Of a stretch of DNA of 64,000 nucleotides, positions 21,489 to 38,906 are shown in pieces; positions within the stretch are counted from its first letter, which is position 1; every line of letters begins with the position of its first letter. The DNA lies in the NCBI GenBank assembly GCA_905182175.1, contig CAJJAT010000008.1:62001-126000 (forward strand). The letters are read 5' to 3'. Source of the DNA: Flavobacteriales bacterium UBA1494 (lineage in GTDB: Bacteria; Bacteroidota; Bacteroidia; Flavobacteriales_E; Vicingaceae). The notes beneath the pieces were generated by a model that saw only the letters and a list, made by a program, of their open reading frames with translations, was not told the DNA's origin and searched no databases. The translations under genes and the position numbers were made by a program.

Positions 21489-24400
21489 TTATCGGCTCAA
21501 GTAAACTGAACCTTTAATTACCTCGTCGGCAATAATAATTACATAAAAGTATGTCCCAACTTTTGCAGGTTGTCCTCTTAATGTAACCCCATTCCAGCCA
21601 TATTGTCCTATGTTAGAATCAAACACCTTTTCTCCCCAACGGTCAAATATTTGAAACTCGACGCAACCAATAAACTCTCCTTCAAATCCCGGATCAAAAA
21701 GATCGTTCATCCCATCACCATTAGGGGTAAAAACATTCGCATTCTTCAGTTGCAACAAGCTTTTTAAACCCGCTGCATTAATATTCTCAGATGTTGAATC
21801 AGTACAAGTTAAATTACTTCCAATTAAAGTCAATGAGTTTTCAGTCAAATTATTGATTTCAAATAGCGGGTTCCGCTCTCTACTGACTACTTTCCCGTTT
21901 AATTTCCATATATAATCATCAGTAAATATCGAAGTATTAATGATTTCAAGCACAGAGTTGGCGCACCGTGGAGAGTTTAAATAATCGAAATCTACTTCGG
22001 CAGCCTGCTTCATATTAACGTAAATACTGTCAGTATCGACGCAACCTAGGTCATTCTGTATTTGCACAGTAAAGTATCGCCTAGAAGTAGCTGTTACGGT
22101 GACTGAACTATCTGTAATACTCGTTAATATATCATCCATATTGCTGGAAGACCATACATACGATATACCATTTGTATCTCCTTGAATTACCGGAGCCAAA
22201 ACAACGCTATCTCCTGAGCAAATAGATACATCAAAAGGAATAAAATCTAAATTAAACACATCAATCGTTACGGTATCTCTTGCAACACAACCATTAGTAT
22301 CTGTTCCTGCTACAACAAAATTTGTGCTTTTTAACGCCCTAACGATAGGGTTGGATATTGTAGCATCATCTAAATAATTAGTTGGTGACCAAGAATAAAT
22401 TTGTGCCCCATCTGCCGAAAGTTGAACCGGCTGATCGACGCATAATGAAGAATCTTTTAGAGCAGTAACAATTGGTAAAGCATTCACACCAACATTAACC
22501 GTGTCATAACTAAAACAGCCATTTGCTCCTGTAACCGTTAAGTAATAAATCGTGGCACTTGTCGGAAAAGCACCGGGGTTTGAATCAGAAACAGAAGTTA
22601 AGTCGGAAGCCGGAGACCAAGCGTAAGTTGAGCCTAAGGATCCAGTTGGACTTCCTCCTAGAATAACAATATCACCAAAGCAAATATCAGTATCATTCCC
22701 TGCATCTGCGACAGGAAGAGGAAGAATAGTCACATCTTTTCGAATAGAGTCGATACAGCCTAAAGCAGTTTGAACCTCTAGGAATACGGAATATGTTCCT
22801 GGTACTGCGTATTGATAGCCCGGATTTTGTAATGTAGAAGTTCCAACACCATCACCAAAATTCCAAGACCAAGAAACAATGCTACCTGCAGCAACAGTGC
22901 TAATATCTGTAAAGGCAGCGAAGTCTCCCTCGCAACTTGGTTCTTCTATTCTAAAATCTACATTTGCCAATGGATTCACGTTGACAATCATCGTATCAGT
23001 AGAAGAACAGCCTGTAATAGGATCAGTAACAGTTACAATAAAGGCGGTCGTGTCATTTGGAAATGCTCGAGGATTTGGTAACGTCGGATCATCTAAACTA
23101 GAAGCATTGTTCCATAAATAGGTCGCCCCAGGTTCGGTTGATGTTGGTAAGCCACCTATTGAAACGGTATCTCTTCTACAAATTGTTGCATCACCTCCTG
23201 CCTGTACGTTCGGAGACAAAGTAACAGTTATCTCAACACTGTCAATACTCGTGCATCCATTTGTATTAGTCACAGTCACAAAATATTTCGTGAGCACTGT
23301 TGGAAAAGCTCCAGGTTGCGCTGCTGTGGCGTCAGTCAAGGATATTGCATTGTCCCACAAATAGGTTTCACCGATCACAGCCGGCTTTCCAAGTATCGTG
23401 GTATCCAATTCACAAATAGTTCGACTTAATCCAGCATCAGCAAGTGGTAAGGTATCAACAATTACATTTCTCACAATCGAATCTAGGCAACCTGAATTTG
23501 TTGTAACAATTAACTTCACCGAATAAGTTCCGGGAGCCTGGTATTCGTAGGTAGGGTTCTGAAGAGCCGAACTACCTGCCCCATCACCAAAATCCCATGC
23601 CCAACCTTGAATCGTCGCAGGCGAAATAATATTTGACAAATCTACAAATTGAGTTACCTCGTTAATACATACCTCAGTTGATCTAAAGTTAGCCGTTGGC
23701 AACGGATTTACTGTAATTAACACAGAAGAAGTATCAAAACATCCAGTATTTAAATCTGTTACAGTTACCTTATACCTAGTTGAAATCGATGGCTTGGCAA
23801 CTGGATTTGAACTACTATTGTCATCTAACGTCGCAGCATTATCCCAAACAAAGGAAACATTCAGACCCGTAGAAGTTGGAGCTCCTCCAATTGTAACTGA
23901 ATCATTTAAACAAACACCTTGATCAGCACCAGCATCGATACTAGGCAATGGAACAATCGTAATTATTTTTGAAATTGAATCGTTACACCCTACTGCTGAA
24001 GCTACAATTAACTTTACTGAGTATGTTCCTGCGGCAGAATAAGTGTATGTAGGGTTTTGAATGGTTGAAGTTCCTATACCATCTCCAAAATCCCATGTCC
24101 AGTTAGTATTAGTTCCGATGGATATACTTGATACATCTGTAAAAAGCGTTGTATTCCCAATACATGTATCCGCAATGGTAAAGTCCACTACAGGAATAGG
24201 ATTAACCGTTACTACAACAGATGAGGTATCAAAACAACCAGTTGTATTCTCAGTAACCGTTAAACTAAACCTAGTTGTAACAATTGGTGAGGCATCGGGG
24301 TTCGGTAGCGTTGCACTATTCAAACTTGTTGCATTGTCCCATAAATAGCTCACATTTGGTGTAACTGAGGTTGGCAAACCTCCTATTTGAACCGTTCCTG

Positions 24401-27400
24401 TATTACAAATAACCTGATCTAAACCTGCATCTGCTGCAGGTAAGGGATTAATTGTTATCGGAATCGTTATTGAATCCGTGCAACCGAAATCACTCACCAC
24501 AACCAACTTAACATTGTAAGTATTGGGAGCTCCATAAGTGTATGTTGGACTTTGCAAGGTTGAGAATCCAACTCCGTCATCAAAATCCCAAGACCAAGAA
24601 ATGATAGTACCGGATACAATTGAACTAGCGTCAGTAAATTGAGTTACGTCATTCTCACATAAGTTTACAAAGGTGAAGCTTGGCGTTGGTTTTGGACTTA
24701 TAACGATCGTATTTGTTATCGAATCCTTGCAACCTAAACTACTCTGAACTACAAGTTTTACTTGATACGTTCCGGGGCCAAAATATTGATAAGAAGGACT
24801 CTGCTGAGTCGAAGTTCCAACCATGTCTCCAAAGTTCCACGTCCAAGAAACAATCGTTCCAGCAGGAATCGAGCTACCGTCGGTAAATTGTGTCAGCTCA
24901 TTTTCACATACTGCCGAAGCAGTAAAAGCAGATACTGGAACTGGGTTCACTTGAATAAGTACGGAAGCAGTATCAGTGCAACCTGTAGCCGATTCAGTAA
25001 CAGTTAATCTATATCGTGTGGTTACGCTTGGAAATGCTCTTGGGTTTGCTTCAGTTGCATTTGATAATAATGGAGCATTGTCCCAGAGGTAAGTCACTCC
25101 CGCACTTGAGGAAGTCGGAAAACCGCCAATCAGAATCGTATCTCTATCACAAATCACCTGATCTAAACCTGCGTCAATATTTGGTAAAGGAACAATCGTA
25201 ATTGTTTTTGTAATAGAGTCCTTACATCCAATGGCTGTTTCAACAATAAGCTTCACATTGTAAGTGCCTGTTGAAGTATAAGTATAATTAGGATTTTGAA
25301 GAACTGACGTTGACCCCATATCGTCGAAATCCCAGGTCCAACTTGTAATTGTTCCTAATGCCAATGTCGTTATATCTGTAAAAAGCGTGGTATTGTTAAT
25401 GCAAGTATCCGAAATTGTAAAATCTACACCAGGTATTGGATTCACTCTAATCAGAGTAGAAGAAGTATCAATACATCCCGTCGTATTCTCAGTAACAGTT
25501 AGGCTATATCTCGTCGTAACCGTCGGAGAAGCGGTAGGGTTTGAAAATGTGTTATCATCCAACGTTCCAAAGTTGTCCCAAAAGTAACTCACATTTGGTG
25601 TGGTCGATGTAGGTGACCCACCAATCTGAACAGAGAATGAACTGCAGATATCTTGATCTACTCCGGCCTCTGCTGTTGGGTTTGGATTAATTGTTACCTG
25701 CTTCGTAATTGAATCCAAACAACCTACTCCACTTCCTGAAACTAACTTCACGTCATACGTTCCGGCCGACGGAAAAGTAAAAGTCGGATTTTGTGCACTT
25801 GAAGCTCCCAAGCCATCAAAATCCCATCTCCAAGTATTTACAGCTCCTGAACCTATCGAACTTCCATCTGTAAATTGAGTTACATCGTTTTCACACAGAT
25901 TAGCAAACGCAAAGTCTACCGTTGGTTTTGGATCAATGGTGATTGGAATAGTAACAGAATCTTTACATCCGAAGTTACTCGTTACAACTAGTTTTACTTG
26001 GTATGTTCCTGGTGTAGAAAATTGATGTGTCGAATTTTGCAGCGTTGAACTAGCTGCCGCATCGTCAAAATCCCAAGACCAAGCAGTTATTGTACCCGTT
26101 ACAATTGTACTTGCATCAGTAAATTCTGTTATTTGATTGATACATGTTTTGTCTACTGTAAATAAAGGGGTTGGAACTGAATTGAAGGTTACATTCATTA
26201 CAGCATCGTCGCTACAACCAGTTGCTGTTTCTGTAATTACAACAGTATATGCTGTTGGAGTTGTTGGTGTAGCAATTGGATTTGCAACAGTTGAACTACT
26301 TAATCCTGCTGTTGGAGTCCAACTGTAAGTAAATCCGGCAACAGGGGTTACTCCGATTTGAACACTTGTTCCAGGACAAATATCTTGATCTACTCCAGCG
26401 TCGGCTGTTGGGAGAGTATTAACAATTACCAAAATATCATCTGTATCCGTGCAAGTTGTTCCTGAACCAATGGTAACCGTGACGGTGTATGTTGTATTTA
26501 CAGTTGGAGATACGGTTGGATTAGGTGCCGTTGAAGCAAACCCTGTAGGAATAGAACTCCAAGCGTAAGAAGCTCCTGCCGGACCTGTTGGTACCCCTCC
26601 TATTTGAATTCCTGACCCCAAACAAACTGAAGCAGGAGTATTTCCTGCATCTGCCATTGGAAAGGGAATTACAGTCACTGTCACCTGTGCAGAATTCGCA
26701 CATCCGTTACCATCTGTTACTGTAAGAGTGTAAATTGTTGTATTTGCAGGAGTAGCGGTTGGATTAGCATCATTTGCATTACTTAACCCTGCTGTTGGTA
26801 GCCAGTTATATGTTAATCCAACAACAGGAGCTGCTCCAAGTTGAGCTGTTCCTCCGGGACAAACAGATTCATTAGAACCTGCTATTACTGTAGGCGAAGT
26901 AATTGATATTGGGAGAGTTAATGTAGAATCACACCCTTGCCCTGAAGTTGCAGTTAAAACTACATTATAATTTCCTGCAGCTGTATACGTGTGCGTTGGA
27001 CTTGTTTGAGTTGAGACCGATGAACCATCTCCAAAATTCCAAGAATAAGTTACCAGACCACCTGTGATGGTAGTTAAGTTTGTAAAACTAATCGGGATAT
27101 TTGGACATTGGTTGTTAGGGAATGAGAAATTCGTTTGAGGGTCGGGAAAGGTAAAAGTGTAGTTCAAAGTATTCGAACTTGAAGTGCAACTTTTTGAAGC
27201 GTTTACCAATTCTACTCTATAATTAACGTCATCTGAACATGGAATAAAAGTTTCAGTAAAGTTTATTGCTGCCGTACTTTGATATAAATTAAACCCAGAA
27301 CCTAGAGGATACTCCCTAAATACTCGGTATTGACCAGCAGAACCTAAAGGATTTGGATTTGAAATTGAATTCCAATCTACCACAACATTTGTAGGATTCG

Positions 27401-29036
27401 TTGTTGCCCCAACAAAGATTGTAGAAACCGTATCTTTTGCAATATTTTGCACTATACCTTTACAGCCGGATCTGCTCCTTACCACATAATGCTGTTGCTG
27501 AGCATTTGCATTAGCTCCAGAATGGGTGTACGTATTGGTTGTATATGTTTTGACACTATCCAACAAGACAAACGGCCCGTTTCTATCAAGTGCGGAATAG
27601 ATCATCCAAGCGGTAAACGAATTATTAATATTTGGCGTTAAATCCCAATCCAATGCCACATCTCCATTTGCCAATACATTCACACAATTCACATCGGGTG
27701 ATTCGATGACCGTATCACCAACCACCGTAACTGAAATTGTTGCAATGTTAATGGCCGGAATTGGGCATTCATCATCGGATGCAGTAATTACAAAAACATA
27801 AGTATTTTGACCGCTAATACATCGATCGGTAAAAGAAACATGATTACAATCTGTTTGCCACGAAAAGGTGTTTGTGACACCTAACAAACCGGTTTGTGGT
27901 AATGGACTTGAGAGAGTTGCACAAGGAGGATTATTACATCCGGTTGTACTGCTAAAGTTTGTGCCAAACTGCAAACCTGTTGCCGTCAATGTTATACTGT
28001 CTCCTAAATAAGGAGGCGCCAAACTAGCAAAATCACTTGCCTGAATATTGAAGGTAACCAAATCCCCGGCCATTACAGTGTCGTTAAATATGGTGAAGTT
28101 TCCTGATGCATCCTGAAAGGGGGCATTTAACGTTGGGATTGTTTGGTTAGCAGAACAGTTACTCGAAATGTTTGATTGTAATTCCCTAAATACTTCTGCT
28201 ACTTTTTCACCACATTTATACGCGGAAACTTTAACAACTGAAACATATTTTCCTGCTGTGGGCGGGTTCAACGTAATCTCTCCTGTTGATGAGTTTAGCA
28301 CTTCTGGCCCAGGAAAAGGGTTGTTAAAACTAAAACCGGTGTTAAAAGCTAAAATACTTGGTCGAACTCCTTCAAGATAAGGAGCACTCACATTATTGTT
28401 CAACGGTCTACCCCATTCATACACCAAAGAATCTAATTCATCATCAGTGGCGTTGTGATTGTAAGTAAAACTTGAACCAACACATAAAAGGCTAGTTGCT
28501 TTTTCTCTAAACTGTGGGGAGTTATCATTGCATTGACCTGCCACTGAACCCGAATGTGCAAATATTTTTGCACGTATCGTTATTCCGCGATTACCAATAT
28601 TATCATTCGCGTTTCTAGCAAAATCATTATATGTAACTACCCATCCATCTGCAGGTGGTATCCCATTTAATGTAATTGGCTGTGTTACTCGAATGTATTC
28701 AAAAACCACCTCTGGATCTCCACTTGCACAAGAATACGTTACACCCGTTCCCTGTCTGCACCTTGGAGCAATCTCTTGGTCAACATTCCGGGTTGCGTCA
28801 AGCGTTAGTGAGGTCACATTCCCTAAATTAGGGTAATTGTATAGCTCAAAGTTACCTGTGTTAGGCACGATAGCCGTGCCACTGCAGTCTCTGTAAACGG
28901 TGAATGAAAATACATATTGATTACTCCCATTACACTCCCAAGTAACTTCTCCACCCATAATATGAGTGGCATTAGCCTCATTTGTAAGCGATAAAAACGA
29001 AACAACAAATCCTATATACAGTAAAATCTTTTTCAT
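21489..29036 (-). CDS. Giant PKD-array surface protein with gliding-motility (CHU_C, type B) C-terminal domain
   Basis: The open frame extends to 29147, but the start is taken at 29036, where a good signal peptide (KKILLYIGFVVSFLSL) begins and the family-typical THIMGGEV sequence follows. The product is then 2,515 residues. The N-terminal 650 residues are a conserved cysteine-containing region. After that comes a long array of nine PKD domains (WxWDFGDG-type cores) interleaved with about ten Ig-like modules beginning xAGxDQxIC. The last 85 residues (FTPNGDGMNDLF, WNGVTLRG, GTYFYVI) form the gliding-motility-associated C-terminal domain, a type B T9SS signal. It is probably a long fibrous surface adhesin. 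A minus-strand promoter lies upstream. Confidence 0.93.
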   Translation of the reverse strand: MKKILLYIGFVVSFLSLTNEANATHIMGGEVTWECNGSNQYVFSFTVYRDCSGTAIVPNTGNFELYNYPNLGNVTSLTLDATRNVDQEIAPRCRQGTGVTYSCASGDPEVVFEYIRVTQPITLNGIPPADGWVVTYNDFARNANDNIGNRGITIRAKIFAHSGSVAGQCNDNSPQFREKATSLLCVGSSFTYNHNATDDELDSLVYEWGRPLNNNVSAPYLEGVRPSILAFNTGFSFNNPFPGPEVLNSSTGEITLNPPTAGKYVSVVKVSAYKCGEKVAEVFRELQSNISSNCSANQTIPTLNAPFQDASGNFTIFNDTVMAGDLVTFNIQASDFASLAPPYLGDSITLTATGLQFGTNFSSTTGCNNPPCATLSSPLPQTGLLGVTNTFSWQTDCNHVSFTDRCISGQNTYVFVITASDDECPIPAINIATISVTVVGDTVIESPDVNCVNVLANGDVALDWDLTPNINNSFTAWMIYSALDRNGPFVLLDSVKTYTTNTYTHSGANANAQQQHYVVRSRSGCKGIVQNIAKDTVSTIFVGATTNPTNVVVDWNSISNPNPLGSAGQYRVFREYPLGSGFNLYQSTAAINFTETFIPCSDDVNYRVELVNASKSCTSSSNTLNYTFTFPDPQTNFSFPNNQCPNIPISFTNLTTITGGLVTYSWNFGDGSSVSTQTSPTHTYTAAGNYNVVLTATSGQGCDSTLTLPISITSPTVIAGSNESVCPGGTAQLGAAPVVGLTYNWLPTAGLSNANDANPTATPANTTIYTLTVTDGNGCANSAQVTVTVIPFPMADAGNTPASVCLGSGIQIGGVPTGPAGASYAWSSIPTGFASTAPNPTVSPTVNTTYTVTVTIGSGTTCTDTDDILVIVNTLPTADAGVDQDICPGTSVQIGVTPVAGFTYSWTPTAGLSSSTVANPIATPTTPTAYTVVITETATGCSDDAVMNVTFNSVPTPLFTVDKTCINQITEFTDASTIVTGTITAWSWDFDDAAASSTLQNSTHQFSTPGTYQVKLVVTSNFGCKDSVTIPITIDPKPTVDFAFANLCENDVTQFTDGSSIGSGAVNTWRWDFDGLGASSAQNPTFTFPSAGTYDVKLVSGSGVGCLDSITKQVTINPNPTAEAGVDQDICSSFSVQIGGSPTSTTPNVSYFWDNFGTLDDNTFSNPTASPTVTTRYSLTVTENTTGCIDTSSTLIRVNPIPGVDFTISDTCINNTTLFTDITTLALGTITSWTWDFDDMGSTSVLQNPNYTYTSTGTYNVKLIVETAIGCKDSITKTITIVPLPNIDAGLDQVICDRDTILIGGFPTSSSAGVTYLWDNAPLLSNATEANPRAFPSVTTRYRLTVTESATGCTDTASVLIQVNPVPVSAFTASAVCENELTQFTDGSSIPAGTIVSWTWNFGDMVGTSTQQSPSYQYFGPGTYQVKLVVQSSLGCKDSITNTIVISPKPTPSFTFVNLCENDVTQFTDASSIVSGTIISWSWDFDDGVGFSTLQSPTYTYGAPNTYNVKLVVVSDFGCTDSITIPITINPLPAADAGLDQVICNTGTVQIGGLPTSVTPNVSYLWDNATSLNSATLPNPDASPIVTTRFSLTVTENTTGCFDTSSVVVTVNPIPVVDFTIADTCIGNTTLFTDVSSISIGTNTNWTWDFGDGIGTSTIQNPTYTYSAAGTYSVKLIVASAVGCNDSISKIITIVPLPSIDAGADQGVCLNDSVTIGGAPTSTGLNVSFVWDNAATLDDNSSSNPVAKPSISTRYKVTVTDLNTGCFDTSSVLITVNPLPTANFRSTEVCINEVTQFVDLSNIISPATIQGWAWDFGDGAGSSALQNPTYEYQAPGTYSVKLIVTTNSGCLDSIVRNVIVDTLPLADAGLSRTICELDTTILGKPAVIGETYLWDNAISLTDATAAQPGAFPTVLTKYFVTVTNTNGCTSIDSVEITVTLSPNVQAGGDATICRRDTVSIGGLPTSTEPGATYLWNNASSLDDPTLPNPRAFPNDTTAFIVTVTDPITGCSSTDTMIVNVNPLANVDFRIEEPSCEGDFAAFTDISTVAAGSIVSWSWNFGDGVGTSTLQNPGYQYAVPGTYSVFLEVQTALGCIDSIRKDVTILPLPVADAGNDTDICFGDIVILGGSPTGSLGSTYAWSPASDLTSVSDSNPGAFPTSATIYYLTVTGANGCFSYDTVNVGVNALPIVTALKDSSLCVDQPVQLSADGAQIYSWSPTNYLDDATISNPIVRALKSTNFVVAGTDTNGCVARDTVTIDVFNLDFIPFDVSICSGDSVVLAPVIQGDTNGISYVWSSSNMDDILTSITDSSVTVTATSRRYFTVQIQNDLGCVDTDSIYVNMKQAAEVDFDYLNSPRCANSVLEIINTSIFTDDYIWKLNGKVVSRERNPLFEINNLTENSLTLIGSNLTCTDSTSENINAAGLKSLLQLKNANVFTPNGDGMNDLFDPGFEGEFIGCVEFQIFDRWGEKVFDSNIGQYGWNGVTLRGQPAKVGTYFYVIIIADEVIKGSVYLSR
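23688..26162 (-). repeat. Tandem duplication of a five-module block in the PKD array
   Basis: Read on the minus strand, 26162-24927 (412 codons) and 24926-23688 (413 codons) encode the same module order: PKD, PKD, xAGxDQ, PKD, xAGxDQ. Matching positions keep block-specific words: LCENDVTQFTD in the second module of both, NVSYFWDN against NVSYLWDN in the third, and CINNTTLFTD against CIGNTTLFTD in the fourth. The equal lengths and positional matches indicate one duplication of five domains at once, not single-domain copying. Confidence 0.8.
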
Positions 29037-29062
29037 AAAAAGTCTTAAAAAAATCCAATGGT

Positions 29063-29091
29063 CTAAAATACACATTCTATTAATTAAACAA
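29063..29091 (-). promoter_or_regulatory. Candidate promoter of the PKD giant
   Basis: On the minus strand, TTG (29091-29089) is followed after 18 bases by TATTTTAG (29070-29063), a one-mismatch form of the Bacteroidota -7 element TAnnTTTG. It lies 26 bases before the chosen start codon at 29036, which supports that start. Confidence 0.45.
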
Positions 29092-29152
29092 GACGAAAAA
29101 AGAAGTGAAAACGTTGTTTGAAATTGAATTAAACAAAGCGTCAACATTTCTG

Positions 29153-33579: not shown

Positions 33580-33689
33580 CCTCTCTTACTGCATTCGTAA
33601 AAGACTTTAATTAGCTCAAAGCGGGTTATCTCAAGTTTTATTTATGTTTTTAATTTCGTTAAATTCACGCAACAAAATTGCCCTATCGC

Positions 33690-36600
33690 ATGAAGAATAT
33701 TCCATTCATTGAGGACGCATTCGCTCAGGAGAAACTTTTGCAAGCGCTGCTTCAACCTTTAGTTAATGAGGTAGCAGAACAACAGCTGTACTTAAAGAAA
33801 ACAGATGAACTATTTACCTCCTATTTGGAAAGAATCAACAGAATTCAAAGCGTCAATAGTACTAGTAAGTACATAAACGAAACCAATTGGTTAAAAAAAG
33901 AACTCAATCAGCAATTAGAAACAGAGTTTCCTAAGAAAGAAGAAATTTCCATTTTCGACTTTTACACTGAATTTTTCGAAGTATTTGAAAATTTGACTAA
34001 CAATGTTGCTAAAAAGGTAACGGCAATACAAAAAGCTCAAAGATTTTCAATTCAGCCTCAGAATACTATTTCAATTCAGGTGCAGAAAGTTTTTAAACAA
34101 TTTTTCTTTTTTATTGGAACGTTCTCCATTCGCACTAAAAATTTATTTCAAAAAAAGAAATCGCCAATTGTTCGTTGGAAACAAACCATTCCTTTAAAGG
34201 CGATGCTTGAGCATCATCTCAAATATGATTTATCTCAAAAGAGTTTGCGTTTTTTCAATGAAATTCAAAAATTAAAATGTGATGCTCGAAATATAAAATG
34301 GAGGATAAACAAAGATATAAACCGTGAAGTTGCAGCACTTCTAGATAAAGAAGATATTGATTTTGAAGAATTAAAAGACCACTTGCGGACAATGGCTGAA
34401 CGCAAGCAAATCCAAGAGGTAATAGCCGATTTTGACAGAAAACTAAGCACATGGAAAGTAGACAATCAACAAAACATAACAGAGTCACTGATCCAATTTA
34501 ATGAAAGCATCGACCTAGTTGATACTCTTGAACTTCATGCTGATTTTTATTCAAACACTGCTCTTCAAACAAAAAGCAACACCGCTCAAGCTACATTTAA
34601 GCAAATACTGAATGGATGGCGAAATACTCAATATGCCCAAATAGACGATTTCCAAATAGACTTAGAGCTTTACCAATTAAAGTACAGTGGACTTACGCAG
34701 TATTTCCTTTTGGAAAACGGCTGTAAAAAAAGAGTTGCAAAGACAGTCACCGAATTTATTGACACTATCAAAATTCAATTAGAAGAGGTTATAAAAAAAG
34801 TAGAATCTGCTAAAAGTCCTTCAGAAATAAAAGAACTACTTATCTCTGAACGAATAAAACTGCACCACGAACTTAAAAACAAAAGTGTTCCTTTAGCAAT
34901 TACAGCCCTATACGAAAATAATTTCCCGAACCTAATTGAACGCATGGAAACTAAGATTCGTGCTCAATTATCCGTCATGAAGGATAAGCGTATCATTTAC
35001 AGCAAAGAAACCTATGACGCTCCTATTCCTAAATCAAACCTGAGCCACTTTAATCCAAAAGAGCTAGTTGAAGTTGACTTAATTGGTCCATTTTCAAATA
35101 AACTATTCCAGTTAAAAACAGCATTAAATGAAAAACTGAGTAGCACAGAAATAGGGCTAAATGATTTAGTGGGTATAGTAGACTACAATCTAGATGCAGC
35201 GACCAATTCAGTTGATGGAGAGCTTGCTTTAGATGAAATTAAGGCCATTGCAAAAGAGGGATTGGAAAGAGCATGCGCCAGAACAGGGGCATTAGCAGAC
35301 GATTTAGGTGGTATTTCAGTAATCATTGGTGTACATCTAAAAAAAGAGATCGATAAATTAAACGTAGGCCTTCTCGGGTTAACAAATAACGAGAACATTA
35401 CCAACCTTAGAATAAAACTTGCTAAGGCAAAGGCCATAGAGAAAACAGAACAATATAGGAGAGAGCTTTTCTCTAAAGTGCGAAATTTCGTACCCATTGC
35501 CTTGCGTTTTGGCCAACAAAAATGGAGTAAATTATTACTTTACAGTCGTGCCATTCAAGAGCGCATTGGAATAATAGAGCCCAACACCGAATTAACAACA
35601 GCACTTTCTGACTTTCTTTCGCATTCTGAAAAAGCCATTCAAAAATTACCTTATGTGTACAGAAGACTCTACGAAATAAAGCCACTCGAGGAGGACGGGT
35701 TTTTTGAAGGAAGGATCAAAGAGTCGGCCAAACTGGAGGAAGCATTTAGTCATTGGAATGAGTCCAATGTTTCATCGGCGGTTATTGTAGGTGAGAAAGG
35801 TAGTGGGGCAAGTAGTTTACTAAACAAGTTTGTAAAAAGCCACAACGATTCAAATATTACTCGTCATAAAATGACCACTTCGGCTTGCACTGCAGATGAG
35901 TTCTTCCTGTTTTTTGATACTTTATTTGAAGATGATGAATTAGGAGACTTCGACGGCACTGTTAACTTTTTAAACAAGGGCAGAAAACGAATCATAATTT
36001 TAGAAGATATCCAACATTTTTATCTTAAAAAGTCAAACGGATTTGAGGCGATTAATCTACTTCTTGAATTGATTTCTCAAACTGCAAAAAACGTTTTTTG
36101 GTTAGTCGGAATTAGTACCTTCTCGTGGAATTATTTTGAAAAAACAATCGCCATTGAAAGATTCATTCGCCACAAAATTATACTTAGTCGGCTAAACGAG
36201 GAACAAATTGTAAAGCTAATTATGAAAAGACATAGAGTGAGTGGGTATAACTTGAAATTCGATGAAAATCAATTACGAAGAAAAGATTTATTTACCTTAC
36301 TCAGAAAAACAACAGACAACAGTCAAGAGGGCCTAAAAAGAACATTTTTTACTGAACTTAATAGCTTTGCACAAAGTAATATTAGTTTAGCCTTGTTGTA
36401 TTGGTTGCACTCTGTAATTTCATTTGAAAACAACACAGTAGTTATTGGAAAAATTAAAAATATCAAATTTGATTTTTTAACCTCACTTGATGCGACTAGT
36501 ATTTTTACATTACATAGTTTACTTCTGCACGACACCCTGAGCTTAAAAGAACATGCAGAGGTTTTTTCCCAGGCTGAAAAACAGAGTAGAATGACTTTAA

Positions 36601-36713
36601 TGGTATTAGAGGATAGCGGAATTCTAATCTTCCGAAATGGAGAGTACACAATAAACCAACTAATATATCGCCAAGTAGTTACTGTTCTAAGAAATAAAAA
36701 CCTCATACACTAA
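33690..36713 (+). CDS. Large coiled-coil/P-loop NTPase-like protein coupled to an MscS channel
   Basis: I do not recognise a named family. The open frame extends to a TTG at 33678, but the ATG at 33690 (protein starting MKNIPFIEDAF) is the better start, giving 1,007 residues. Residues 1-680 are highly charged and helical, probably with coiled coils, and contain one short hydrophobic patch. An AAA/ORC-like domain follows: Walker A-like GEKGSGASS at 701-709 with alanine where the lysine should be (707), Walker B-like RIIILEDI with acidic residues at 772-773, and a sensor-like FWLVGISTFSW. The last 70 residues look like a winged helix. The stop overlaps the MscS start (TAATG), so the two are probably made together. 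Confidence 0.7.
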   Translation: MKNIPFIEDAFAQEKLLQALLQPLVNEVAEQQLYLKKTDELFTSYLERINRIQSVNSTSKYINETNWLKKELNQQLETEFPKKEEISIFDFYTEFFEVFENLTNNVAKKVTAIQKAQRFSIQPQNTISIQVQKVFKQFFFFIGTFSIRTKNLFQKKKSPIVRWKQTIPLKAMLEHHLKYDLSQKSLRFFNEIQKLKCDARNIKWRINKDINREVAALLDKEDIDFEELKDHLRTMAERKQIQEVIADFDRKLSTWKVDNQQNITESLIQFNESIDLVDTLELHADFYSNTALQTKSNTAQATFKQILNGWRNTQYAQIDDFQIDLELYQLKYSGLTQYFLLENGCKKRVAKTVTEFIDTIKIQLEEVIKKVESAKSPSEIKELLISERIKLHHELKNKSVPLAITALYENNFPNLIERMETKIRAQLSVMKDKRIIYSKETYDAPIPKSNLSHFNPKELVEVDLIGPFSNKLFQLKTALNEKLSSTEIGLNDLVGIVDYNLDAATNSVDGELALDEIKAIAKEGLERACARTGALADDLGGISVIIGVHLKKEIDKLNVGLLGLTNNENITNLRIKLAKAKAIEKTEQYRRELFSKVRNFVPIALRFGQQKWSKLLLYSRAIQERIGIIEPNTELTTALSDFLSHSEKAIQKLPYVYRRLYEIKPLEEDGFFEGRIKESAKLEEAFSHWNESNVSSAVIVGEKGSGASSLLNKFVKSHNDSNITRHKMTTSACTADEFFLFFDTLFEDDELGDFDGTVNFLNKGRKRIIILEDIQHFYLKKSNGFEAINLLLELISQTAKNVFWLVGISTFSWNYFEKTIAIERFIRHKIILSRLNEEQIVKLIMKRHRVSGYNLKFDENQLRRKDLFTLLRKTTDNSQEGLKRTFFTELNSFAQSNISLALLYWLHSVISFENNTVVIGKIKNIKFDFLTSLDATSIFTLHSLLLHDTLSLKEHAEVFSQAEKQSRMTLMVLEDSGILIFRNGEYTINQLIYRQVVTVLRNKNLIH

Positions 36714-37819
36714 TGAAAAAAATAGCACTATTACTTGTATTTATAAGTTTTGGCTTTAGCATGCAATGCCAAGATTCATTAACTGCGGTTGAAGACTTAC
36801 CAGATCCACTCTACATTGGATATGTAATTGTGAAAGAGGAGATTAAAAACGATACAACTCAAATTGATTCTACAAAAGAAGTCCCAAAAGAAACAAAAAA
36901 AGTTGCTGTTTTAAACACTCAACGGATGATTACCTTCGATACCGCTAAAGTGCTTATTGAAGGAGAAACTAGAATAACGAATGGATTAATTCCCCCTCTT
37001 CTTCCTAAAACGGAAACAAAAAAGAGAGAAACCGTTGTACCTTTAGGTGATGTTATCGCCTTTAGTAGCATTTTCTGGTCTTTAATAATACTGATTGGAA
37101 CTTATTTTTTTATCAAGATATTAGTTACAATCATCGAACGTTTTGCAGAAAAAAGCACCAACTATAGAATTACACTTAAAAGTTTATCTCCGTTTGTGAG
37201 AATTATAGGTTGGATGGTAGCTATTATTTGGATTATTGAGGGAGTTTTTGAATTGTCAAATGATAAACTTTTTGCCTTTTTAGCCTCTGCAGGTTTGGCT
37301 GTTGGTTTTGCGTCGCAAGATATTTTGAAAAATATTTTTGGAGGAATTATGATCCTATTTGACAAACCTTTTCAAGTAGGCGACAAAATTGAAGTTGGCG
37401 CTATTTATGGCGAGGTAAAAGAAATAGGATTGCGGTCTACCAGAATTCTTACCAAAGATGACTCCCTCGTTTCATTGCCAAATGCCGAAGTGGTAAACAG
37501 TGCAGTTTCCAACTCAAATAATGGTGAAGCAAATTGCCAAGTTGTTGCAGAAATTTATTTACCTATAGATACAGATACAAATGCAGCGCGGCTAATCGCA
37601 ACTGAAGCAGCTCAAGTTTCTCGATTTACTTATCTAAACAAACCAATAACTGTCTTATTTTTTAATGAGGTAAAAGAAGACCGCAGTTATTATAAAATGA
37701 GAGTAAAAGCATATGTTTCTGACATAAGAAATGAATTTGCTTTTAAAAGCGACATGACGGAGATTATTATGAAGGAGTTTTTAAAACAAAGTATTTTCAA
37801 GAAACAAGACGTTCAATAA
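36713..37819 (+). CDS. MscS-family mechanosensitive ion channel
   Basis: The pore-lining helix and beta-domain signature (ASAGLAVGFASQDILKN, then FDKPFQVGDKIEVG and LPNAEVVNS) identify a small-conductance mechanosensitive channel. A signal-like N-terminus (residues 1-19) is followed by an extended polar region with many Lys, Thr and Glu residues to about residue 115, then roughly three membrane segments. The polar N-terminal domain is longer than in E. coli MscS and may be periplasmic. Translation is coupled to the preceding P-loop protein by a TAATG overlap, which suggests that protein controls or senses the channel. That functional link is inference. Confidence 0.9.
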   Translation: MKKIALLLVFISFGFSMQCQDSLTAVEDLPDPLYIGYVIVKEEIKNDTTQIDSTKEVPKETKKVAVLNTQRMITFDTAKVLIEGETRITNGLIPPLLPKTETKKRETVVPLGDVIAFSSIFWSLIILIGTYFFIKILVTIIERFAEKSTNYRITLKSLSPFVRIIGWMVAIIWIIEGVFELSNDKLFAFLASAGLAVGFASQDILKNIFGGIMILFDKPFQVGDKIEVGAIYGEVKEIGLRSTRILTKDDSLVSLPNAEVVNSAVSNSNNGEANCQVVAEIYLPIDTDTNAARLIATEAAQVSRFTYLNKPITVLFFNEVKEDRSYYKMRVKAYVSDIRNEFAFKSDMTEIIMKEFLKQSIFKKQDVQ

Positions 37820-38056
37820 ATAACCTGACATGTGCATTAATCTTAACAAATCCTTAGTTGCAGAAGTAAATTTTAGCAATTTCTCTGAATTCACTCAATT
37901 TATAGAAACTACAAAACAAGTTCCGAGGACACTTCTAAAAACAAAAACGTTATGCAGTTAGAAATTTACAGTTAAAGCGAAGAAAGTATTAGGCAAAAAA
38001 GGGAACAAAAGTATTGCCAAGTTATTAGAACTAAGGAAAGGGCTAATTAGTTAAAC
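37820..38056. other. Intergenic sequence before the corA remnant
   Basis: Only short open segments are present. One of 41 codons starts at ATG 37850, and the following frame contains a lysine-rich stretch (KKVLGKKGNKSIAK). They may be the eroded 5' end of the corA gene or another lost gene; nothing recognisable was found. Confidence 0.4.
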
Positions 38057-38906
38057 ATTGACGGCCTGCACAACATTGATCTCATCAATTAGATTGGGAG
38101 AGCATATAAGCTGAGTTCATTTTTACTGGAGGATGTATTGCATGCAGAACAACGACCAAAACTGAAGGTTTTTAGAGATTATATTTCTTCATGATTAAAA
38201 TGTTTCACGTCAATCCAGATGGTGAATTAGAATATGAGCACATTAGTTTTGTTTTAGCAAACGAAAGCGTTATTTCTTTCAAAAAAGACCAAAAGACGTA
38301 TTTGATTTAATTTGTGATCGTTTAATTAAATCTCATTGAAAAATTCGCAAAAAAGGGGCAGAATATTTATTCTATCGTTTTATCGACACCATTGTAGAAC
38401 GCTGTTTTATTGTCCTGGATAGAATTTCCTACAAGATAGAGCAGTTAGAGGGTGAGGTAATGGAGGATCTGAGTACTAAAACCTTACATAAATTACAAAG
38501 TATTCGGAAAAAGCTCAGCTATTTGAGACGATCCATTTACCCGTTGCGTTAATCCATCAATATCATTTTTAAAAGTGAACGCCCTTTGTTTAAAACCGAA
38601 ACAGAGCGCTACCTTATGGACGTTTATGATCGTACGGTTAAAGTAATAGAGTCTATATAGACCTGCCATGACTTGCAAAGTGGTATTATGGATTTACATA
38701 AGAATACTGCTAGCAATAGAATGAAAGGGATAACCATTATGAGTACGATCTTTATATCACTAGCATTTATTGCCTGAATTTATGAAATGGATTTTCAAAA
38801 TATGCCTGAATTAGAAACCAAATGGCCTTACCCGTCGGTTTATGTTTTCATTGTTATTCTAGCTATTTTGATGTTAATTTTGTTCGGTAAGAATAAGTGG
38901 CTCTAA
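38057..38906 (+). pseudogene. corA: Decayed CorA-type magnesium transporter gene
   Basis: Conceptual translation across frames recovers the CorA order: DGLHNIDLIN, then LEDVLHAEQRPKLKVF, a HVNPDGELEYEHISFVLAN block, KKGAEYLFYRFIDTIVE, a coiled helix with QLEGEVMEDL, and the C-terminal membrane region MSTIFISLAFIA followed by IYEMDFQNMPELETKW. The usual GMN pore motif is altered to EMD. At least five in-frame stops occur (after LIN, before KIRKKG, after YPLR, after VIESI, and TGA inside the FIA-IYEM junction), plus two frame changes near 38190 and 38290. It cannot make a working transporter. The 5' end is not recognisable. Confidence 0.85.

Follow-up and report, generated by a model that had tools for sequence, protein, structure and literature searches.

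The window analysed here is a stretch of 64,000 nucleotides from Flavobacteriales bacterium UBA1494 (contig CAJJAT010000008.1, positions 62,001 to 126,000). It carries a gene for a large AAA+ protein of the P-loop type that overlaps the gene of an MscS-family channel. A functional link between the two proteins is strongly supported by sequence comparison. With modest confidence, the AAA+ protein can be read as a non-motor regulatory subunit of a module of MscS and cation transport, which would serve osmotic and ion homeostasis and whose nucleotide chemistry appears to be further reduced in this lineage. The observations behind this reading are a pairing that is conserved in related genomes, fusions of the same module to transporters, an AAA+ fold, residue losses in its nucleotide-binding motifs, and purifying selection.

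The overlapping gene pair

33690 to 36713, + strand: AAA+ (P-loop) protein of 1,007 amino acids, ATG start at 33690; no transmembrane segment, hydropathy maximum 1.25
33690 to 35600, + strand: N-terminal long-helix bundle, residues 1-637, predicted by AlphaFold2 (AF2); co-linear with relatives, including transporter-fused forms
35640 to 36470, + strand: ORC/Cdc6-type AAA+ domain, residues 651-927 (Pfam, AF2, Foldseek)
35790 to 35816, + strand: degenerate Walker A, GEKGSGASS, residues 701-709; A707 codon GCA at 35808-35810, G706 and S708 kept
36003 to 36008, + strand: degenerate Walker B, E772-D773; residue 773 never Glu in 85 family members
36228 to 36233, + strand: family signature R847-H848 in the lid helix; Arg in 85 of 85
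36471 to 36710, + strand: winged-helix-like C-terminal domain, residues 928-1007, from AF2 secondary structure (winged-helix topology at 928-1002)
36711 to 36715, + strand: TAATG stop/start overlap read in the sequence, possible translational coupling; gap of -4 to +2 nucleotides conserved in the family
36713 to 37819, + strand: MscS-family channel of 368 amino acids (PF00924, 2.8e-21), with an N-terminal signal-like segment, an extracytoplasmic stretch and a canonical Gly/Ala pore helix

The open reading frame of the AAA+ protein opens with a TTG at 33678, 12 nucleotides upstream of the ATG at 33690, and ends at 36713. The ATG was chosen as the start because the homologues align to it, which gives a protein of 1,007 residues. 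The overlap described in the original prediction is present as stated, the stop codon TAA at 36711-36713 sharing bases with the mscS ATG at 36713. In comparison with two same-genus orthologues, the proportion of nonsynonymous differences (pN) in the AAA+ gene is 0.19-0.20 and that of synonymous differences (pS) about 0.86, with synonymous sites saturated, so that no dN/dS figure is given. A pN of about 0.20 at this pS indicates strong purifying selection on the gene, which is not decaying.

The partner has the MscS beta-domain (PF00924, 2.8e-21) at residues 203-269, after the pore helix, and transmembrane-like segments at 123-141 and 161-179. Its pore helix (TM3) shows the canonical Gly/Ala pattern in an alignment of orthologues; the guide sequence in this alignment, which we take to be that of Escherichia coli MscS, carries no weight in the conclusions. 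With a beta-domain following the pore helix, the partner belongs by sequence to the MscS family, and its opening by membrane tension is predicted.

Neither protein of the pair, nor two relatives, matched the anti-phage protein models of PADLOC, and the identity of the pair as a defence system was dropped. A mobile or plasmid-borne element was likewise discarded, there being no plasmid match.

Conservation of the pairing across the phylum

The 1,007-residue type was found in 12 of the 46 genomes of the host's own family, and all 12 loci have a directly adjoining mscS gene on the same strand. To reach the wider family, 395 genomes sampled across the phylum Bacteroidota were searched with a C-terminal-domain profile (A2), and about 75 of them gave strong matches. 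Phylum hits and class-level hits together provided 84 loci, which were examined with their surroundings, MscS neighbours being sought in six frames. When the MscS-like gene is strictly required to abut the AAA+ gene on the same strand, it does so in 77 of 84 loci. The coordinates, as we read them, place mscS directly upstream in two more (L146 and L147), where an over-long open frame masks it, and one locus (L150) was excluded from the count because it ends on the relevant side. An MscS-like gene is directly adjacent in 79 of the 83 testable members. Consistent MscS neighbours, which the original prediction had named as support, are found in both sets, with exceptions in one genome family (f24) only. 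The f24 loci (L028, L054, L055 and L056) encode an AAA+ protein of the GEQ[NS]GKT type of up to 1,120 amino acids, with a middle part resembling that of the SLC12 fusions described below, and have neither a transporter fusion nor an MscS neighbour.

Matches to A2 with an E-value of about 1e-5 at profile positions 32-131 were left uncounted; their open frames of about 850 amino acids most probably encode AAA proteins of the ClpB type. Three class hits (L059, L060 and L063) were set aside as AAA_16 proteins that are unrelated by sequence.

Neighbours kept together by descent, with no functional link, would explain the purB-AAA+-mscS-corA region, which is syntenic within the host's own family. 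This is very improbable for the family at large. The MscS-like gene remains adjacent in 79 of 83 members despite changed upstream genes, flipped gene order and varied partners, and transporter fusions exist. MscS lies downstream in most lineages and upstream in one deep clade, the upstream neighbours of the pair are wholly different between families, and partner types also vary. With such changes in order and surroundings, the MscS link is more than inherited synteny. The host genome contains only 8 MscS-domain genes, so that the chance of a random adjacency is below 1% per genome.

Fusions to transporters and neighbouring transporter genes

In eight loci, the module is fused to a K-Cl cotransporter of the SLC12 family. 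These proteins have about 1,690 amino acids, of which the first 670 form the transporter and the helical-AAA+ module forms the C-terminus. Matches reach 1.8e-50 to PF00324 in one locus and 3.2e-113 to TIGR00930 in another. All eight fusion genes directly precede an MscS-like gene of 217-253 amino acids.

SLC12-AAA+ fusion loci: L050 4729-9789; L051 2993-8047; L052 4623-9830; L053 2005-7089; L027 7216-12132; L094-L096

In five further loci (L130, L134, L137, L138 and L141), the module belongs to a protein of about 1,500 amino acids that includes a CPA2 cation:proton antiporter (PF00999 Na_H_Exchanger, 7e-19; CPA2 model, 4e-9). MscS-like, TrkH (3e-59) and TrkA (7e-25) genes follow on the 3' side in a tight cluster, and a protein of 414-422 amino acids with no Pfam match is encoded upstream. 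A separate CPA antiporter lies beside the pair in 6 loci, and CorA does so in 10 of 11 loci of the own family and in 2 loci of f83.

Domain architecture

The original prediction proposed an AAA/ORC-like domain between a long helical N-terminus and a winged-helix-like C-terminus, and the AF2 model agrees with all three. In the modelled structure, the AAA+ core, lid and winged helix of the ORC/Cdc6 fold are present. Residues 651-927 match Cdc6/ORC in Foldseek with an E-value of 2.6e-6, and the superposition gives a Z-score of 16.4 over 241 residues at 3.3 A. Pfam returns weak matches to AAA_22 (6e-5) and AAA_16 for the large protein, and the AAA+ family profile also picks up ClpB/ClpC. No NCBIfam model was found for this protein or its 1,007-residue relative in f90, and no TrkA_N (Rossmann, KTN/RCK) domain was matched.

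A separate model of the N-terminal 637 residues, made with 35 relatives, shows a bundle of long helices with high confidence (predicted local distance difference test 89.9, predicted template modelling score 0.77). Foldseek found no significant match for it in the PDB (best E-value 0.1). Its assignment to a known fold was abandoned, since nothing beyond helical bundles, generic or designed, and a bacterial dynamin pair (Z 12.4, 6.6 A) came up, all at the level of helical background. Profile comparison with hhalign links the bundle to f90 proteins (99.9%, 2e-37), to the SLC12 fusions (4e-8) and to the CPA fusions (3e-7), E-values that coiled-coil bias may have inflated. The corresponding region of the fusions joins the transporter to the AAA+ domain, and the alignments keep the same order over about 400-540 columns. 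In one lineage of f90 (g229; L118, L120, L122, L123 and L132), the protein is shortened to about 300-430 amino acids, with AAA+ and winged helix, no N-terminal bundle, and MscS still adjoining; the P-loop is missing as well from the called frames of L118 and L122.

The ORC/Cdc6-type AAA+ core with its C-terminal winged helix might also indicate a DNA-binding regulator of the ORC/STAND kind, which would govern how the channel and transporter genes are expressed upon an ion or nucleotide signal. The winged-helix profile does match helix-turn-helix regulators (2d1h, 1.7e-5), and regulators typically adjoin their target genes. However, the module is fused to polytopic membrane transporters in 13 loci, it overlaps tightly with the channel gene, and the winged helices of ORC/STAND proteins are often used for protein contacts. 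Such a regulator is unlikely, and less likely than a regulatory subunit.

Nucleotide-binding motifs

Neither the Walker A consensus of active ATPases, GxxGxGK[ST], nor their Walker B, hhhhDE with its catalytic Glu, can be read in the AAA+ protein. As originally predicted, the Walker A motif is GEKGSGASS, with Ala encoded by GCA (35808-35810) at residue 707. Among the 12 own-family orthologues, this position holds Ala in six, Thr in four and Ser in two, and Lys in none; a local mutation or assembly error was discarded on this ground. E702, K703, G704, S705, G706 and S708 are invariant in all 12, although full-length identity falls to 33%. The conserved alanine anticipated by the original prediction therefore holds in part: the lysine is consistently absent in the own family, but alanine itself occurs in only half of its members.

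In the wider family, Lys is found at 707 in 54 of 83 members, the others having A, R, T, S, I, N, M or V. G706 is present in 83/83 and S or T at 708 in 80/83. The position of the Walker B Glu (773) is occupied by D, N, G, S, H, Q or K and never by E (0 of 85 sequences). The signature residues of the family are P654, Y657, G706, R847, H848, N897 and W905. A lysine-less P-loop, taken at first as the defining trait of the system, fails as such, since most relatives keep the lysine and all lack the Walker B Glu. As the Glu is missing family-wide and the Lys only in part, the lysine was lost late, in a family whose suitability for hydrolysis was already poor.

On a tree built leaving out the P-loop columns, at least four changes between Lys and other residues are needed. 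Support for the clade of the own family is firm (100/99), while grouping it with four K-less proteins of f83 is plausible but weakly supported (89 in the Shimodaira-Hasegawa-like approximate likelihood ratio test of a quick tree; 79/39 in a careful tree). Arg took the place of the Walker A Lys (GSGR[ST]) in two separate groups, one being part of f90 and the other a high-GC clade with MscS upstream (L109, L113, L133; L142, L145-L147, L151, L152).

K703 could have taken over from K707, in which case ATP binding and hydrolysis would persist. The invariance of K703, G704, S705, G706 and S708 in the own family would fit such a displaced lysine, as would the presence of K703 in 4/4 K-less f83 relatives. 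K703 predates the loss, however, being present in f90 relatives with a normal lysine (GEKGSGKS), and is thus poor evidence for a relocated residue. In the other K-less clade the position of K703 is not occupied by Lys, and the Walker B Glu is missing. This explanation is improbable.

The same losses bear on the possibility that the protein is a chaperone or remodeller, acting in assembly or quality control of MscS and associated transporters instead of regulating the assembled channel. The AAA+ fold, the profile matches to ClpB/ClpC and a translational coupling that could aid co-assembly would suit this role. Remodelling requires ATP hydrolysis, however, and the Walker B Glu is absent family-wide, as is the Walker A Lys in the own lineage. 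Permanent fusion to transporters is also less to be expected of a catalytic chaperone than of a stoichiometric subunit. An assembly factor is not a likely explanation, and it ranks below a regulatory subunit.

Proposed role of the AAA+ protein

As a regulatory subunit, the cytosolic AAA+ protein and the MscS-type channel it serves would make up one functional unit, belonging to a phylum-wide module of ion and osmotic homeostasis. The helical stalk and AAA+/winged-helix module would probably dock on the cytosolic side of the channel and bias channel or transporter activity according to the state of the cell. In other lineages, the module would act as a regulatory subunit joined to the C-terminus of a K-Cl cotransporter or CPA2 antiporter. 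Because the Walker B Glu is absent family-wide and the Walker A Lys is also gone in the own lineage, the protein would be a conformational switch or scaffold and not an ATP-driven motor; here it may bind nucleotide with no hydrolysis, or bind none. We infer complex formation, gating of the channel and absence of hydrolysis. AAA+ proteins and MscS are both able to form rings of six or seven subunits, and docking of an AAA+ ring on the MscS ring is conceivable.

Three points weigh against such a subunit. Four members, all from f24, have no MscS neighbour. The MscS-like partners of SLC12-fused and CPA-linked forms have lost the Gly/Ala pore pattern and show aromatic and charged residues instead (L027 6566-7219, L050 3975-4736, L058 7060-7794, L061 3954-4706), and in some cases the partner may therefore not function as a channel. 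Moreover, genes can share operon regulation without physical contact between their products.

A broader proposal, somewhat short of an even chance, is an undescribed phylum-wide control of osmotic and ion balance. A non-motor AAA+ protein would physically gate MscS-type channels and couple these to transport by K-Cl cotransporters, CPA2 antiporters, Trk or CorA, with a lysine-less P-loop here and in at least one other lineage. If true, pressure release would be tied to ion uptake and efflux through one protein family, and a handle on osmoregulation in Bacteroidota would be gained. It would also bear on the question of why the P-loop lysine is lost time and again in AAA+ proteins that remain under selection.

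The decayed corA gene and surroundings

37866 to 38906, + strand: decayed corA (Mg2+/cation channel), with in-frame stops and frameshifts, 70% nucleotide identity

An intact corA lies behind mscS in same-genus relatives. The remnant is the only CorA match in the host genome assembly. The AAA+/MscS pair is maintained without an intact corA, which suggests that the pair, and not corA, is the core. Elsewhere in the window (21489-29147, - strand), a repetitive PKD-like protein of 2,552 amino acids has a C-terminal end that, judged by eye, is of the gliding/type 9 secretion system type.

Comparison with known systems

In the open-access full text searched, no description of the AAA+/MscS pair or the transporter-AAA+ fusions was found, nor of a dedicated cytosolic regulator of bacterial MscS, and the pseudo-AAA+ literature held nothing relevant to the pair. 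Within this literature and PADLOC, the original view that no described system has this layout stands. The layout of an ATPase with MscS stands as a conserved pairing, but the module is wider and includes K-Cl cotransporters, CPA2, TrkH/TrkA and CorA in other lineages.

The transporter fused in eight relatives resembles the cation-chloride cotransporters (SLC12/KCC), matching TIGR00930. Unlike these, the fused relatives have a C-terminal helical-AAA+ extension and an adjoining MscS-like gene. A paper on cation-chloride cotransporter evolution does not mention this extension (PMC4301019).

With ORC/Cdc6-type AAA+ proteins, the large protein shares an AAA+ core fold that includes the lid and the winged helix (Z 16.4 against Cdc6). 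It differs in its setting of membrane transport instead of DNA replication, in its helical N-terminus of about 630 residues, and in a family signature of its own (P..Y..L, RH, N.......W) with no catalytic Glu. A conserved Arg in the lid helix is common to both. Orc2/Orc3 pseudo-subunits are a precedent for ORC subunits with no working P-loop.

The partner is like mechanosensitive MscS channels in its PF00924 beta-domain and canonical Gly/Ala pore helix. To our knowledge, known MscS channels are gated by membrane tension with no dedicated AAA+ partner gene and are described as autonomous tension valves.

A functional analogy is offered by the KTN/RCK (TrkA-type) regulators of KefB/KefC, TrkH and KtrB, cytosolic nucleotide-fold domains that are fused to CPA2 antiporters or encoded beside K+ channels and transporters; ligand-controlled gating would be common to both by analogy. 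Some antiporters have a nucleotide-sensing KTN/RCK domain, which in Kef-type antiporters holds the C-terminal position that the AAA+ module takes in the CPA2 fusions. The fold is AAA+ here and a Rossmann NAD-binding fold there, and the main partner here is an MscS-type channel.

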